Assembly: GCF_016862575.1 (NCBI RefSeq)
Contig: NZ_BONF01000008.1
Coordinates: 372,001-436,000, forward strand
Reading direction: 5' to 3'
From: Catellatospora bangladeshensis
GTDB taxonomy: Bacteria > Actinomycetota > Actinomycetes > Mycobacteriales > Micromonosporaceae
DNA length: 64,000 nt
This document shows, one piece after another, positions 3,986 to 50,914 of the stretch. The stretch's first letter is position 1; every line of letters starts with the position of its first letter. The position numbers and the translations under genes were made by a program. The notes below the pieces were generated by a model, which was given only the letters and a program-made list of their open reading frames with translations, was not told where the DNA came from and ran no database searches.

Positions 3986-4003
3986 TTGTGAATAAGTGCA
4001 CAA
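3986..4003. promoter_or_regulatory. Candidate Rex or CRP/GlxR operator upstream of pckG
   Basis: The sequence TTGTGAATAAGTGCACAA matches the Rex consensus TTGTGAA-N4-TTCACAA at 13 of 14 defined positions. It also matches the CRP/GlxR consensus TGTGA-N6-TCACA at 9 of 10. It lies about 120 bp upstream of the pckG start. The consensus sequences are established; which factor, if either, binds here is inference. Confidence 0.45.
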
Positions 4004-4022
4004 GCGTCGGTCCGACTGCGTC

Positions 4023-4058
4023 TTCGCGCACGATTCTTCGGTCGTTCGCGCACGATTC
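4023..4058. repeat. Two direct copies of a 14-bp motif upstream of pckG
   Basis: TTCGCGCACGATTC occurs at 4023-4036 and again at 4045-4058. The period is 22 bp, about two helical turns, which suits cooperative binding of a regulator on one DNA face. The interval separates pckG from the divergent ECF sigma gene. Confidence 0.5.
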
Positions 4059-4270
4059 CGCAAATCTGGTTTTGGATCTTGCAGCGTTCGCGTCGCGCGA
4101 CGGCCCTGACGCGTGCGAGCCCGATCACTCCCATCCCCATACCCGCTGCGGGCTCTGGCGAACGCGGCTATCGCGACTTCATCACGGATTGGGCATATTC
4201 CGCAAATCGGGCGATTGGGCTAACGTCGCTAGCAGCCGGCGAAACCGTGATGTTCCCCCCGGAGGCCGCA

Positions 4271-7186
4271 GTGACCAGTGGGTTCGACCCTGCCCAGGAT
4301 CAGTTCAGCGAACCGCAGAGCGATCCACAACTCATCTCACTCGTGCGAGGCGGTGACACCGACGCGTTCGGGCTGCTCTACGAACGGCACCTGGAGTCCG
4401 CGCGGCGGCTGGCCCGCGTGCTCAGCGACGGGCACGCCGACGCCGACGACCTCATCGCCGACAGCTTCGCCAAGGTCTTCGCGGTGCTGCGCAGCGGCGG
4501 CGGCCCGGACACCGCGTTCCGGGCGTACCTGCTGACCACCATGCGGCACACCCGCTACGACCGGGCCCGGCAGGACCGCCGCGTCGAGCTGACCGACGAC
4601 CTCACCCGCTACGAGATCCCCGAGCCCGCCGACGACCCGACCATCACCAGGCTGGAGACGTCGTACGCGGCACGCGCCTTCGCGCGGCTGCCCGAGCGCT
4701 GGCGGGCCGTGCTCTGGCACACCGAGGTCGAGGGCGAGAGCCCCGCCCAGATCGCGCCGCTGCTCGGCCTCACCCCGAACGGCGTCGCCGCGCTGGCGTA
4801 CCGGGCCCGGGAGCGGCTGCGCCAGATGTACCTGCAGGAGCACATCGCGCTCACCGGCAACCCGCGCTGCCACTGGACCGGGGCGCACCTGGCCGGATAC
4901 GTCCGCGCCGCGCTGGCCCGGCGCGACCGCGGCAAGGTCGACGAGCACCTGTCCACCTGCGCCGAGTGCCGCCGGCTGCACCGCGAGCTGACCGAGGAGA
5001 ACTCGGGCCTGCGGGGTGTCGTCGCACCCCTGTTACTCGGGGCCGCCGCACCGGCGTACCTGGCCGGTAGCGGCCGGCTCGCGTTCGGCGGCCGCCTCGC
5101 CACCGCCTGGGGCGCGCTGGTGCTGTGGTGGCCGCAGCTGAAAGAGCACGTCGGCGCCTGGGCGGACGCGCTCGTGGGACTCGCCGCGCTCGCCGGGCGC
5201 TGGCTGGTGGCCGCGCCACGCCGGCTGCTGGGCCGCTTCGGGCTGGCCAACCTGGTCGCGGGCACCGGCGCGGGCTTCGCCGCCGTGGCCGGGGTGGTGC
5301 TGTTCGTGAGCCTGACCGCCGGACCGCCGACCGCCCGGCCGCGCGCCATTCCCGTCCCGGCGCCGGCCGCGCCGCCGCTGTACGCCCCCGCACCGCAGGC
5401 ACAGGCGTCGCCCTCGCCCTCGCCGCAGCCGACCGCCGCTTCGGCGCCCGCGTTCCCTGCTGTTCCGGACCCCATGCGGCAACCCGCTGTGGTGCCCCCG
5501 GCAGCGCCGCCCCCGGTGCCGCCACCTGCTGTCGCGCCGCCCGCCGCACCTGCCCCGGCGCTCGCCCCGGTCCCCGTGGCCGAGCCCGCCCCGGAGGTCG
5601 CCGCGCCCGAGTACAAGGAGGTCGACCTGGTCGCGGGCAAGGCGGGCACGCTGCCCATCCCGGTCCGCGCTCCGGCGGATGCCCCAGCCACGACCCGCGA
5701 CCACGCCGGCACCCGAGCGGCTGAGCACATGGCAGTGCCTGCCGGCTGGCCGGGCACCCCGGGCGAAGCAGCCACGGGGAATGCCCCGGAGCGACTTTGC
5801 TCTGCACACAAATACGCGACTGTTGCGTATTTGTGTGCAGAGCAAAGCGAGCCGGCCGGGGAGACCGGTACTGCCGCATCGCCGCCGAGTTCCGCGACCG
5901 GGAGCGACGGCTCGCCCGCAGCCACCGCGATCACCGGGCCTGACGTCACCCCCGCGGCGGCCCGAGCGCCCGGCGCGGTGCGCATCGAGGTGACGCTGCC
6001 GGACGGGATGCGGCTGGCCGGGAGCGGCGCCGGGGACGGCTGGCAGTGCGAGGCGACGCCCACCGGCGCCGTCTGCGACCGGATCGGCTGGGGCCGGGGC
6101 GCGCGTTCGGTGGCGCGGCTGCCCGTGCTCGCCGACCCCGAGGTCAGTGGCTTCCAGCAGGTCACCGTCGCGGCGACGTACGGGCGGCAGCGCTCGGAGT
6201 CGGCGTTCCGGGTGCCGGTCGCACCGGCCGGGCTGCGCCTGGGGCACGCGGCGACCGGGCGGGTGGACGTGGCGCTGGCCGGCAACGTGCTGCTCTCCTG
6301 CGCGCCCCGGCCGCTGTGCCTGGTCGCCGGGGACAACAACCTGATGCAGATGACGCCCCTGCGGCCCACGCCGGGCGAGCCCGCCGCGCCCGGCGGCCTG
6401 GACGGCCCGGACGGGCCCGCCGGGCCGAAGGGCCCGATCGAGGAGCTGGCCGGGGAGAAGGCCGCCAGCGGCGCCCGGCTCGCGCTGCCCGAGGGCGCCG
6501 ACGTGCGCTGGGCGGGCCTGATCGTGGCCTCGTCCGGCGCACGGCTGCCGGAGCTGGTGGCATTGCACGGTCCCGGCGGTGTGTGGCAGCCGGTGCGGGT
6601 GGAGACGGGGCATGCCGAGTCCGGCGCCGTGTTCAGCCAGGGCCACGCCGAGGTCACCGAGCTGCTGCGGGGCGGCGGCGCGGGCGACTGGTGGCTGGCC
6701 GCCCCCGCGGGTCCGCTGCCCCGCGGCCGGAGCCAGTTCGCGGGCTGGACCCTGGCCGTGGTGTACGCGCACCGCAGCGCCCCTCGCGGCGAGGCCGCCG
6801 TCTACCTGGGCCCGGGTGGCGGGCGCGGCGACGTACCGGCGACGGTGGGGCTGGGCGGCGGTGGAAAGGTCCGGGTCGGGCTGGCGCTGTGGGACGGCGA
6901 CCTGGCGCTGACCGGCGACGAGCTGCTGATCGGCGGCGCCGTCGCGGGCGAGCCGGGCAACCTCGCCGCGGGACGCAACGCCGGGGCTGCCACGCTCGCC
7001 TGCGGGTCCGCCCCCGGACGCTGCGTATGGCGTACCCCCGGCCTGGATGTGCTCTGGGCGGGCGCGAAAGCCGACGCCGGCGCGGTGGCCCAGCTGCGCA
7101 CGGGGGGCGATCCGCTGGAGGTCGGGCTGGTCGCGGTGGTCTCCGGGCCGCCGCGCGAACCGGGCACGGCGGCCGCGACACGGTAG
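4271..7186 (+). CDS. ECF sigma factor fused to zinc-finger anti-sigma, membrane and exported domains
   Basis: This 971-residue protein joins several parts. Sigma region 2 is at about residues 20-90 and region 4 at about 133-185 (helix-turn-helix with SPAQIAPLLGLTPNGVAALAYRARER). A zinc-finger anti-sigma-like motif HLSTCAEC is near 225-233. A transmembrane segment lies near 325-350, followed by a Pro/Ala-rich linker and a large exported region (about 350-971). This suggests a one-piece signalling protein that senses outside the membrane and redirects RNA polymerase. The start GTG 4271 has GGAGG at 4261-4265. A TTA codon (residue 255) makes it a candidate bldA target. A 53-bp palindrome is embedded in frame at 5795-5847. 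The signal and regulon are unknown. Confidence 0.85.
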   Translation: MTSGFDPAQDQFSEPQSDPQLISLVRGGDTDAFGLLYERHLESARRLARVLSDGHADADDLIADSFAKVFAVLRSGGGPDTAFRAYLLTTMRHTRYDRARQDRRVELTDDLTRYEIPEPADDPTITRLETSYAARAFARLPERWRAVLWHTEVEGESPAQIAPLLGLTPNGVAALAYRARERLRQMYLQEHIALTGNPRCHWTGAHLAGYVRAALARRDRGKVDEHLSTCAECRRLHRELTEENSGLRGVVAPLLLGAAAPAYLAGSGRLAFGGRLATAWGALVLWWPQLKEHVGAWADALVGLAALAGRWLVAAPRRLLGRFGLANLVAGTGAGFAAVAGVVLFVSLTAGPPTARPRAIPVPAPAAPPLYAPAPQAQASPSPSPQPTAASAPAFPAVPDPMRQPAVVPPAAPPPVPPPAVAPPAAPAPALAPVPVAEPAPEVAAPEYKEVDLVAGKAGTLPIPVRAPADAPATTRDHAGTRAAEHMAVPAGWPGTPGEAATGNAPERLCSAHKYATVAYLCAEQSEPAGETGTAASPPSSATGSDGSPAATAITGPDVTPAAARAPGAVRIEVTLPDGMRLAGSGAGDGWQCEATPTGAVCDRIGWGRGARSVARLPVLADPEVSGFQQVTVAATYGRQRSESAFRVPVAPAGLRLGHAATGRVDVALAGNVLLSCAPRPLCLVAGDNNLMQMTPLRPTPGEPAAPGGLDGPDGPAGPKGPIEELAGEKAASGARLALPEGADVRWAGLIVASSGARLPELVALHGPGGVWQPVRVETGHAESGAVFSQGHAEVTELLRGGGAGDWWLAAPAGPLPRGRSQFAGWTLAVVYAHRSAPRGEAAVYLGPGGGRGDVPATVGLGGGGKVRVGLALWDGDLALTGDELLIGGAVAGEPGNLAAGRNAGAATLACGSAPGRCVWRTPGLDVLWAGAKADAGAVAQLRTGGDPLEVGLVAVVSGPPREPGTAAATR
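5795..5847 (+). repeat. Perfect 23-nt-arm palindrome inside the ECF sigma gene
   Basis: The arms at 5795-5817 and 5825-5847 are exact reverse complements over 23 nt, with a 7-nt loop (GACTGTT). Each arm is AT-richer than the gene around it and carries the core TGCACACAAATACGC. The element is read in frame and encodes residues 509-526 of the exported linker, including LCSAHKYA and AYLCAEQ with two cysteines. It looks like an inserted repeat element tolerated in a disordered linker. Confidence 0.9.
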
Positions 7187-7189
7187 GCT
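7184..7189 (+). promoter_or_regulatory. Leaderless -10 box for the first GtrA gene
   Basis: TAGGCT ends 6 nt before the GTG at 7196. It overlaps the stop codon of the ECF sigma gene (TAG 7184-7186). Confidence 0.4.
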
Positions 7190-7195
7190 CGCCTG

Positions 7196-7708
7196 GTGAC
7201 CCCCACGCCACCGGCTCCGAAGACCTCCGCGGCAATGCCGCTGCGGCTGGTCGAGCGGTTCCGGCACCTGCTCGCTGAACTCAGCAAGTTCGGCGTGGTC
7301 GGCGGCGCCGCGTACGTCGTCGACCTCGTCGTCTTCAACCTGCTGCTGTCGCCCGTCGGCACGCTGTCCGCCTCGGCGATCTCGACGGTGGTCGCGGCGA
7401 CCGGCGCCTTCGTCGGCAACCGCTACTGGACCTGGCGTGACCGGGAACGCTCCAGCCTCACCCGGGAGTACTCGCTGTACTTCCTCTTCAACCTGATCGG
7501 CCTCGGCATCACGCTCGCCGTGGTGTGGCTGAGCCACGACGTGCTCGGCAGCGTGTGGCCGGAGGTCTTTCACACCCGGCTCGCGGACAACGTGGCGAAG
7601 ATGCTGTTCGGCACCGGGATCGCGAGTGTGTTCCGGTTCTGGGCATACCGCCGTTTCGTCTTCTCCGGTGCGGTGGTCGGCGAGCCCGCCCGGGTACAGG
7701 CGGGGTGA
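7196..7708 (+). CDS. GtrA-family membrane protein (first copy)
   Basis: This 170-residue protein has the four-helix GtrA fold. FGVVGGAAYVVDLVVFNLLL is helix 1 (about residues 32-51). The conserved loop GNRYWTWRDRE follows helix 2, and FRFWAYRRFVFSG closes helix 4. GtrA proteins are thought to flip or position undecaprenyl-phosphate-linked sugars for cell-envelope glycosylation. It starts at GTG 7196, 9 nt after the ECF gene stop, and is followed 62 nt later by a paralogue. No glycosyltransferase lies next to the pair, so the sugar substrate is unknown. Confidence 0.88.
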   Translation: MTPTPPAPKTSAAMPLRLVERFRHLLAELSKFGVVGGAAYVVDLVVFNLLLSPVGTLSASAISTVVAATGAFVGNRYWTWRDRERSSLTREYSLYFLFNLIGLGITLAVVWLSHDVLGSVWPEVFHTRLADNVAKMLFGTGIASVFRFWAYRRFVFSGAVVGEPARVQAG

Positions 7709-7758
7709 GTTCGCTTGCATTCGGAGTTGCGTTGCAGAACTCTCCCAGCCGTCTCACG

Positions 7759-7764
7759 TAAGGT
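7759..7764 (+). promoter_or_regulatory. Leaderless -10 box for the second GtrA gene
   Basis: TAAGGT lies 6 nt before GTG 7771. The interval from the first GtrA gene is unusually AT-rich and long enough to hold an independent promoter. Confidence 0.45.
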
Positions 7765-7770
7765 GACCCA

Positions 7771-8511
7771 GTGCACCCAGACCTGACGCTGCTCGATCGA
7801 CTGCTGCCCAAACGGCTCCGTGACCTCGGCCCGGAGGCGCTGAAGTTCGCCATCGTGGGCGGCGTCAACACCGTCGTCAACTTCGTGGTGCTCAATGCCC
7901 TCGTGCTGACGATCTTCCCCACCGGTCAGCTCAAGGCCAACGTGGTCGCCACCATCGTGGCGATGATCGCGTCCTACCTGATGAACCGGCACTGGACCTA
8001 CAAGGGCCGCTCCAGCCAGGCCATGGGCCGCGAGTTCCTGCTGTTCGTGCTGTTCAACGTCGCGGGCCTGGCCATCGAGCTGGCCATCATGGGCGCCACC
8101 AAGTACGCCCTCGGCCTGCACGGCCTGCTCGCCCTCAACGCGGCGAAGCTGCTGGGCCTGGTCCTCGGCACGATCTTCCGCTTCTACACGTACCGCACCT
8201 TCGTGTTCGCCCCCGCGAACGCGATCGCGGTGCCCGCGGGCGGCGTCGACGCCGACTTCGGCCCGGCGCACGTGCACGTGGACGACGTCGACGAGCTGGT
8301 CGACGCCGAGGCCGCCGCCAGCGCGCTGGCCGGCGTGCCGGTGCCCGCGCAGCTGCGCAGCGACGACTTCACCCGGCTTACCGCCCCGCTGGAGGCCGAG
8401 TTCGCCGCCGAGCGGGCCGAGGCCGAGCAGCTGGCCGCCCTGGACGCGGAGTTCACCGACCGGGAGCTCGCTCAGGAGCTCACGCAGGCGAAGCCGCGCC
8501 CAGAGCGGTAG
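7771..8511 (+). CDS. GtrA-family membrane protein with acidic C-terminal tail (second copy)
   Basis: This 246-residue paralogue of the preceding gene has the same four-helix core: FAIVGGVNTVVNFVVLNAL, the loop MNRHWTYKGRSSQ, and the closing FRFYTYRTFVF. After the last helix (about residue 148) it carries roughly 95 extra residues rich in Asp, Glu and Ala, predicted to be cytoplasmic and partly helical. The first copy lacks this tail, so it may mediate partner binding. The GtrA role in moving lipid-linked sugars is inferred from the family. It starts at GTG 7771 and converges on the PH-domain gene, with only 3 nt between the two stops. Confidence 0.88.
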   Translation: MHPDLTLLDRLLPKRLRDLGPEALKFAIVGGVNTVVNFVVLNALVLTIFPTGQLKANVVATIVAMIASYLMNRHWTYKGRSSQAMGREFLLFVLFNVAGLAIELAIMGATKYALGLHGLLALNAAKLLGLVLGTIFRFYTYRTFVFAPANAIAVPAGGVDADFGPAHVHVDDVDELVDAEAAASALAGVPVPAQLRSDDFTRLTAPLEAEFAAERAEAEQLAALDAEFTDRELAQELTQAKPRPER

Positions 8512-9063: not shown

Positions 9064-9189
9064 CCGTGCCTCCTCGTACTCGCCTGCGATCAAACCGCAC
9101 CATTGTCCGCGAGCAGGGTAGTTCCACGAGACGACCCCGGACCATCCGCCATCGGCCCCGCGTCGCCTATCGGTCTGTCCCACGCCGGA

Positions 9190-9264
9190 GATCATCCGAT
9201 TTGCCTGGCACCCGGGCGTATCTTGAGCGCGCTTTCACCCAAGTGCCAGGCAAGTCGCGCGATC
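9190..9264. repeat. Palindromic repeat, family B (copy B1)
   Basis: The 22-nt arms at 9190-9211 and 9243-9264 both begin or end with GATC and share TTGCCTGGCAC / GTGCCAGGCAA. The loop, including GGGCGTATCTTGA, is nearly identical to that of the copy at 24154-24228. Conservation of loop as well as arms shows both copies descend from one element rather than arising as independent hairpins. Confidence 0.9.
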
Positions 9265-9320
9265 TTCGCGGGGCTCGGCGGGGCGGCGACGCAGGCCCCG
9301 CGCGCGGGCGCGGTGGGTGG

Positions 9321-18413: not shown

Positions 18414-18461
18414 GGAAGGGCACCTTCTTATCGTTCTACGTAGAGGAAGGGCACCTTCTTA
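18414..18461. repeat. Family C repeat, direct pair (copy C1)
   Basis: The 17-bp unit GGAAGGGCACCTTCTTA occurs at 18414-18430 and again in the same orientation at 18445-18461. Each unit is itself a small hairpin (GAAGG-GCA-CCTTC). The pair begins 3 bp after the stop codon of the O-methyltransferase gene. Confidence 0.9.
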
Positions 18462-24146: not shown

Positions 24147-24153
24147 CCCGCTC

Positions 24154-24228
24154 GATCATCGGACTTGCCTGGCACCTGGGCGTATCTTGAACGCGCATTC
24201 GCCCATGTGCCAGGCAAGTCGAGTGATC
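24154..24228. repeat. Palindromic repeat, family B (copy B2)
   Basis: The 22-nt arms at 24154-24175 and 24207-24228 both carry GATC at the outer end and TTGCCTGGCAC inside. The loop GGGCGTATCTTGA matches copy B1. It fills the 91-bp gap between the convergent accA3 and guaB1 stop codons, 7 and 9 bp from them, so it may also act as a bidirectional terminator. Confidence 0.9.
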
Positions 24229-24237
24229 TAGGACCGT

Positions 24238-42416: not shown

Positions 42417-42423
42417 AGCGAAA

Positions 42424-42469
42424 GGAAGGGCACCTTCTTATCGTTTTCCGATGTAGAAGGTGCCCTTCC
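42424..42469. repeat. Family C repeat, inverted pair (copy C2)
   Basis: GGAAGGGCACCTTCTTA at 42424-42440 is followed by the reverse complement AGAAGGTGCCCTTCC at 42455-42469. It lies between the phosphohexomutase stop and the convergent membrane protein stop (42481), so it could terminate both. Confidence 0.9.
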
Positions 42470-42480
42470 TAACGTCTGGC

Positions 42481-45230: not shown

Positions 45231-45388
45231 GTTGATCATGAACCTATGGCACGGCTCAGCGGCGTGTCGTGGCCACAGCTTCCTGATCGACTGACGGCTC
45301 GCGCCGGACCGGCAGGGGTACACGCCAGTTGATCATGAACTTATGGCGGCGACACGCCGTCGAACCGTGCCATAAGTTCATGATCAAC
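45231..45388. repeat. Palindromic repeat cluster, family D (three units)
   Basis: A 39-nt unit beginning GTTGATCATGAACCTATGGC (45231-45269) is repeated in inverted form at 45350-45388 with few mismatches. A third, shorter copy lies in direct orientation at 45328-45347. The cluster fills the gap between two convergent stop codons (45222 and 45406). Confidence 0.9.
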
Positions 45389-50868: not shown

Positions 50869-50914
50869 GGAAGGGCACCTTCTTAACGCTGTGCGTATAG
50901 GAAGGTGCCCTTCT
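50869..50914. repeat. Family C repeat, inverted pair (copy C3)
   Basis: GGAAGGGCACCTTCTTA (50869-50885) faces GGAAGGTGCCCTTCT (50900-50914) in inverted orientation, beginning 6 bp after the stop of the deoC operon. Confidence 0.9.

Follow-up and report, generated by a model that had tools for sequence, protein, structure and literature searches.

Results

A perfect palindrome inside a sigma/anti-sigma gene

The stretch analyzed here, called the window throughout, is 64,000 nt of Catellatospora bangladeshensis DNA (contig NZ_BONF01000008.1, positions 372,001 to 436,000). It contains a fusion gene that encodes an extracytoplasmic function (ECF)-type sigma factor together with a zf-HC2-like part and an extensive C-terminal region, and the variable linker of this gene holds the 53-bp palindrome that is the subject of this work (Table 1). 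As a preliminary description of the sequence had noted, the two 23-nt arms are exact reverse complements around a 7-nt loop (0 mismatches in 23 pairs; 26-nt arms at 96% when the loop is counted in). Folded as DNA, the palindrome gave -28.8 kcal/mol and a z of -12.8, with 0 of 200 shuffles as good; folded as RNA with its flanks, it gave a z of -9.7 against shuffles. It is also, as described, AT-rich for its gene, with a GC content of 47% compared to 78% in the remainder.

The palindrome is translated in frame within the 4079-7186 open reading frame (ORF) and encodes LCSAHKYATVAYLCAEQ(S), thereby adding two cysteines, in agreement with the preliminary description; both are retained in a sister species. 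Counted from the ATG at 4250, the insert comprises residues 516-533; the earlier numbering, 509-526, is correct if translation starts at the GTG at 4271. Judging the topology by eye from the sequence, we consider the C-terminal region of the fusion protein to be probably exported. The suggested resemblance to other palindromes of the window was not borne out: their sequences differ, and when one mismatch was allowed, the only matches to the arm TTTGCTCTGCA in the 64 kb were the two arms themselves.

Table 1. Coordinates of the sigma-gene palindrome and its host gene in the window, with the stacked forms found in congeners
Feature	Position	Strand	Basis
53-bp palindrome, copy of the CTTTGCTCTGC...GCAGAGCAAAG repeat family	5795..5847	.	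arm search, genome pattern search, folding
Left arm, 23 nt, CTTTGCTCTGCACACAAATACGC	5795..5817	+	
Loop GACTGTT, 7 nt	5818..5824	.	
Right arm, exact reverse complement of the left arm	5825..5847	-	
Host gene: ECF-type sigma factor, zf-HC2-like part and large C-terminal region, fused	4250..7186	+	
Sigma70_r2 domain, residues 43-111	4376..4582	+	Pfam
Sigma70_r4_2 domain, residues 142-190	4673..4819	+	Pfam
zf-HC2-like stretch, residues 207-241, 21.6 bits, just below the Pfam cut-off of 22.2	4868..4972	+	
Pro/Ala-rich variable linker containing the palindrome, limits by eye	5320..5975	+	
Stacked palindromes, 19-nt arm period	L221, L222, L224, L225, L228, L229, L230, L232-L235		congeners G001, G002, G004, G005, G009

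The palindrome belongs to a dispersed family

We searched genomes with a strict pattern (CTTTGCTCTGC, a gap of 15 to 45 nt, then GCAGAGCAAAG), in which the outermost 11 nt of each arm are invariant, and used the reversed pattern as a control. The window's own genome (G000, 8.83 Mb) contains 18 strict copies and no match to the control, and the single-contig genome of the sister species (G006) contains 11; the 53 bp is thus one copy of a dispersed repeat. A covariance model, whose alignment left out a decayed copy and a half copy from the own genome and a decayed copy from the sister species, recognized 19 places in the own genome, where 24 arms match the window arm exactly over 23 nt. Flanks are unlike among the 17 copies compared in this genome. 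Between copies the arms are alike, whereas loop sequences vary and loop lengths range from 5 to 21 nt; the 29 copies of the two genomes measure 51-67 bp.

Strict copies are present in 2 of 11 genomes of the genus (these two) and in 15 of 354 genomes of the family. Using the covariance model, we found members in 8 of the 11 genus genomes (E<=0.001), including related hairpins in 6 of the 9 congeners that lack strict copies, so that this lack applies to the strict pattern only. With E<=1e-6 and stricter filters, matches were obtained in 33 of 121 sampled family genomes and 14 of 44 genera, and these were not individually inspected. Among named genomes, the strict pattern matched 35 stretches, including some from Rhizocola, Asanoa, Catelliglobosispora, Micromonospora, Planosporangium, Pseudonocardia and Kineosporia. 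Another genome of the family (G353) carries copies identical to the Rhizocola ones; that of Kineosporia and some from metagenome-assembled genomes (MAGs) of Actinomycetota have the family ends with a different interior. At least five of the 35 stretches are probably unrelated or chance hairpins and were not counted: two matches in sheep-gut Clostridia MAGs, which are reverse complements of one sequence, and those in a Eubacteriales MAG, a Gracilibacteria MAG and Undibacterium.

We inspected 14 related hairpins in six other congeners, and 11 were double, with an inner stem CTTGCTCTGCACCC... inside an outer stem TTTGCTCTGCACCC..., an offset of 19 nt and up to 3 units per side. These stacked forms are about 100 nt long, and our guess is that they are older relatives of the single palindrome.

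The 53 bp had no match among the plasmids or phages searched; one viral contig fitted the strict pattern and was rejected, its interior not being palindromic. Across 20 loci, no Rfam family reached its gathering score for the palindrome. For the window copy the best was uup RNA (RF03060), at 32.2 bits compared to a gathering score of 36.8, and microRNA models also fell below their cut-offs, as strong hairpins can score. Searches of the open-licence PubMed Central (PMC) literature, including text matches to the 11-nt arm (those listed being unrelated by title), found no description of the family. The available part of a survey of repetitive extragenic palindromic (REP) elements covers three Actinomycetota and does not mention Micromonospora (PMC12306157).

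Intergenic copies of the two species lie directly behind stop codons

For the analysis of placement we used 20 places in the own genome (18 strict copies, one decayed, one half copy), of which 3 are genic and 17 intergenic. All 17 of the latter lie 1-55 nt behind a stop codon, 9 between convergent and 8 between tandem genes, with none between divergent ones. Of the window's intergenic bases, which served as the null, 32% are found no more than 60 nt behind a stop, and convergent gene pairs account for 12% and divergent pairs for 42%. The corresponding p values are 4e-9 (behind a stop), 7e-5 (convergent) and 1e-4 (no divergent). In the sister species, all 9 intergenic copies lie within 57 nt behind a stop codon, 7 of them between convergent genes. 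The 35 named-genome stretches include one divergent placement, 3 that were called genic and 5 that could not be called.

A T-rich tail (at least 5 T in the next 8 nt) was found at 0 of 36 ends in the own genome, 0 of 22 in the sister species and 0 of 70 in the named genomes, and a terminator scan of window positions 4000-8000 detected no stem followed by a U-tract.

Copies inside genes are in frame

The three genic copies of the own genome, in the sigma gene, a fused ABC transporter gene and an S8 subtilase gene, are all in frame. The copy at C47:17344 lies at the C-terminal end of a protein in which permease and ATPase are fused (Pfam: BPD_transp_1, ABC_tran, oligo_HPY), where it encodes FALHTNTHGAYLCAEQ. 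Because the sister species and four other congeners (G001, G002, G004, G005) do not have this copy, it is most simply a gain in the own genome; the frame is intact, and the tail after the insert is almost identical to that of the sister species. The copy at C51:20004 lies in the linker of the subtilase, intact in the sister species and decayed in the own genome, yet in frame in both. Nothing like its peptide was seen in the 9 congeners, and a net gain could not be measured since the length of this linker varies.

The family is read as LCSAHKY in the sigma gene and as FALHTNT in the ABC transporter and the subtilase. A third frame, LLC (LLCARIR...), is used by a probable copy in a flavin oxidoreductase of Pseudonocardia oceani, whose two best solved homologues are short by 7 and 5 residues at this point. 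It is also used by a probable copy in a CydC-like ABC protein of Catelliglobosispora koreensis, between the membrane and ATPase parts, where alignment to the solved CydC gives no net gain. With these two probable cases, three reading frames occur. A menD-like genic case in Kineosporia (L094) is cut by the end of the locus, and its match to the solved MenD stops where the palindrome begins; it was not counted. No stop codon is present in any of the six frames in 24 of the 29 strict copies from the two genomes, compared to 2.0% (single bases shuffled) or 2.9% (dinucleotides shuffled) of palindromes of the same composition.

Sister species differ copy by copy

In the paired regions, the two genomes are 94.5-96.6% identical (in one pair, only 1.1 kb matched). 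Ten of the 11 strict copies in the sister species sit where the own genome has a copy (9 strict, 1 decayed). The other 9 strict copies of the own genome have no strict partner in the sister species: seven of these places have no copy there, one retains a remnant of 9 nt and one holds a decayed copy. At a further, tenth place, the own genome has a half copy and the sister species nothing. Two of the seven empty sites (C4:83505 and C20:188482) are instead occupied by an unrelated long inverted repeat, with arms of 21 and 23 nt and no more than 2 mismatches, as if unrelated hairpins might replace each other behind genes. No common target duplication was evident around the copies, and the surroundings of the sites have diverged.

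The sigma-gene copy occupies the same place in both species and is absent from the orthologues of the other 9 congeneric genomes, and the two carriers differ in the encoded peptide. The preliminary description had proposed a mobile element able to enter coding sequence without disrupting it. The pattern that it named as refuting this, with the sequence in every orthologue, conserved as protein and with no copies elsewhere, is not what we observed. Its dispersal, its presence or absence at orthologous loci and the in-frame position in three genes of the own genome favor this proposal; the movement itself is what we infer and did not observe.

Arms change in pairs

In the 9 orthologous pairs that are strict on both sides, we counted 5 two-sided paired changes at four places, each Watson-Crick before and after. 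The expected number was 0.35 (0.66 if only the inner 12 positions are used), and 0 of 20,000 shuffles reached 5. Covariation across the 29 copies (26 distinct) gave 18 two-sided change cells compared to 4.6 in shuffles, a number that none of 500 shuffles reached.

Between the sigma copies of the two species, T-A has been exchanged for G-C across both arms, which converts one tyrosine to aspartate and another to serine. Because the peptide changes with the paired arm change, it is the stem that is kept and not the protein. A paired change in a coding copy is hard to ascribe to a role at 3' ends, and correction by template switching would account for both substitutions by one event, in what is a single case. 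We consider template switching the likely mechanism of arm correction.

Search for a mover

No Y1 transposase (Y1_Tnp) was detected in the own genome and one was detected in the sister species. Across 30 related genomes searched, Y1 genes were present in 11, specifically in 4 of 15 strict carriers vs 7 of 15 others. Neither genome contains an insertion sequence (IS) with exact TTTGCTCTGCNNAC ends, a search limited to exact arms; such arms all pair locally except for 3 single arms in the own genome and 2 in the sister species, none of them IS-spaced. The motif GTAG was absent within 8 nt outside the arms (0/36 ends in the own genome, 0/22 in the sister species, 0/70 in named genomes), and CGTC was present at 3/36, 1/22 and 5/70 ends, respectively, with a background of 4% per such stretch.

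Other palindromes of the window and neighboring features

The window contains further palindromes. A second family, AAGGAAGGGCACCTTCTT..., is found at 42423-42470, 50870-50913 and 18415-18460, and exact matches to its motif numbered 8 in 179 kb of the own genome and, in the sister species, 6 in 130 kb. Long imperfect palindromes at 24151-24231 and 9186-9268 share TTGCCTGGCA arms and the middle GGGCGTATCTTGA.CGCGC, and this repeat was seen nowhere else in the 179 kb examined. At 45328-45388 lies a perfect 20-nt inverted repeat, GTTGATCATGAACTTATGGC, with a 21-nt loop, whose core was not found in the other 115 kb of the own genome examined. The palindrome at 1954-2022 (CGATCTTGCGCGAACTGT...) has a similar counterpart in the sister species at C4:83505, where the own genome has the CTTTGC palindrome. 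Elsewhere, a SAM-IV riboswitch (L142:4742-4856, 71.1 bits) lies about 1.7 kb from a copy of the palindrome.

Discussion

Proposed origin and alternatives

We think that the palindrome in the sigma gene is probably a copy of a non-autonomous, dispersed, REP-like 3'-end family of Actinomycetota, which occasionally survives in frame and behaves like the Rickettsia palindromic elements. An activity supplied in trans would copy the element and place it at new sites. At the usual intergenic site, the transcript would end in a strong hairpin that could serve either strand, as a terminator or as a protector of the 3' end. Within genes, the survivors would be in-frame, stop-free copies in a dispensable linker or tail, and the copy in the sigma linker may be such a tolerated passenger. 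Paired changes would keep the arms complementary, the simplest mechanism being hairpin-templated correction by template switching during replication, which would preserve the DNA palindrome and not the encoded peptide.

Several observations weigh against this explanation. No mobilizing enzyme was found by the Y1 search of the own genome or the IS-end search of both genomes. At the 10 places where only the own genome has a copy, we looked for clean empty sites and target duplications and found none; a few to tens of flanking bases also differ there. Relative to homologues, no full element length is gained through the copies in the subtilase, the Pseudonocardia protein and the CydC-like protein. 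The lack of stop codons is also less remarkable when random GC-rich arms are the reference, as 39% of these are stop-free. Placement is looser outside the two species. A distance to a stop codon could be measured for 26 of the 35 named-genome stretches and did not exceed 60 nt in 10 of them (overall range 0-349, with one at 708); for the 14 related congener hairpins, one of which is divergent, 6 of 13 measurable distances were as short. Moreover, the gene calls came from a simple home-made caller and the positional null from one 64-kb window. As for the arms, the same 9 strict pairs also show 5 one-sided changes, and therefore correction is not complete; the decayed subtilase copy of the own genome has lost 5 of 23 pairs, and therefore correction can fail. 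Including this pair brings the double changes to 7 (0.86 expected), the 2 extra ones not being Watson-Crick on both sides. Pairs changed on both sides in the covariation analysis numbered 6, which 17 of 500 shuffles reached, and because the strict pattern fixes the outer 11 nt, conservation of the outer arms is partly a matter of ascertainment.

It is conceivable that the hairpins are terminators under selection that do not move, alike in sequence because one common factor binds them, and that recombination accidents account for the copies within genes. The position of every intergenic copy of the own genome close behind a stop would fit this, as would the two sites where the sister species has an unrelated inverted repeat, as if any hairpin sufficed. 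However, no end in either species has a T-rich tail, and a copying process is needed because 23-nt arms are identical at unlinked loci and copies lie within three genes, so we judge this explanation unlikely. We also doubt that the palindrome is a minimal miniature inverted-repeat transposable element (MITE), that is, two fused terminal inverted repeats of an IS acting in trans. Its sharp-ended inverted-repeat structure and its gains and losses between sister species are what a MITE would show, and the 19-nt arm period of the stacked congener forms resembles serial end-binding sites, but the exact arms pair locally with no IS-spaced single arms among the exceptions, and target duplication is not evident. 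Movement by a REP-associated Y1 transposase (RAYT) would account for the size class, the palindromic form, the 3'-end and convergent placement and the occasional genic copies, all features of REP elements (PMC3733652, available part), and Y1 genes do occur in related genomes. Yet the genome of the genus richest in strict copies has no Y1_Tnp, Y1 genes are not more frequent among strict carriers than among other genomes, GTAG is missing and CGTC is near background; we regard a RAYT as improbable.

Two explanations confined to the sigma gene fare worse. One is that the sigma protein has in this insert a conserved, functional segment, such as a redox-sensing cysteine pair, as its in-frame position and the retention of both cysteines in the two sister species might suggest. 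This is very improbable given that nine congeners do without it, that the linker is variable, that two tyrosines differ through a paired arm change, and that the same DNA occurs between genes and in other frames elsewhere. Template switching can generate perfect hairpins (PMC8794818, available part), and a single such event within the sigma gene might have created this one; since the family occupies 17 other places in the genome, the palindrome came from elsewhere, and we give creation in place next to no credence.

The REP-like family that we favor could also be cast in a bolder form, which we offer tentatively as a possibility. The palindromes would then be selfish elements of Actinomycetota that have evolved to do no harm whichever strand or frame is read (no stop in six frames, though AT-rich for the host), sheltering at gene ends and now and then residing within genes. 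They would spread without a recognizable transposase, and hairpin-templated correction would keep the two arms complementary, rewriting the peptide of a genic copy two codons at a time.

Comparison with known systems

In-frame palindromic repeats in protein genes have been described in Rickettsia (PMC2229807), and intragenic REPs in several other bacteria (PMC3733652); here and below, we draw on the available parts of the papers cited. The present family resides in large GC-rich actinomycete genomes, and its sister species differ copy by copy, a system that would permit direct tests of how such repeats move and why they sit behind stop codons. It would also permit testing whether arms are kept complementary by hairpin-templated correction even where this runs counter to what the host gene needs to encode, for which the change of tyrosines to aspartate and serine in the sigma gene is a concrete case.

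The likeness drawn here to Rickettsia palindromic elements (RPE) is one of behavior: both are dispersed, occur in intergenic DNA as well as in frame within protein genes that are unrelated to each other, and have peptide inserts that are tolerated (PMC2229807). Wolbachia palindromic elements are likened here through a title cited in the same paper. Unlike RPE, which are 105-146 bp long (PMC2229807), the family described here is 51-67 bp, nearly perfect, carried by a GC-rich actinomycete and found mostly right behind stop codons. REP elements (GTAG/CGTC) with RAYTs are of the same size, form hairpins, are placed at 3' ends and between convergent genes, and have copies within genes of several species (PMC3733652), whereas our family has no GTAG tag, CGTC only near background and no Y1 gene in the own genome, and consists of one symmetrical hairpin. 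MITEs such as Correia/NEMIS and RUP are likewise non-autonomous, small, multi-copy and built of inverted repeats (PMC2229807); the palindromes studied here differ in having no observed target duplication, no parent IS found and almost no interior between the arms.

Perfect inverted repeats also occur in protein genes of Nematomorpha mitochondria (PMC6649704), where both arms encode conserved protein, whereas the sigma copy is an added peptide in a variable linker. As in our family, paired changes keep stems matched in the template-switch maintenance of hairpins described in PMC8794818, whose authors call their own evidence for maintenance circumstantial. That work concerns RNA genes, whereas ours concerns a dispersed repeat that includes a copy in a protein gene whose peptide changes. 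Because it lacks the REP tag, a RAYT in the own genome and the RPE length, we class the family as a variant of the protein-coding REP-like palindromes.

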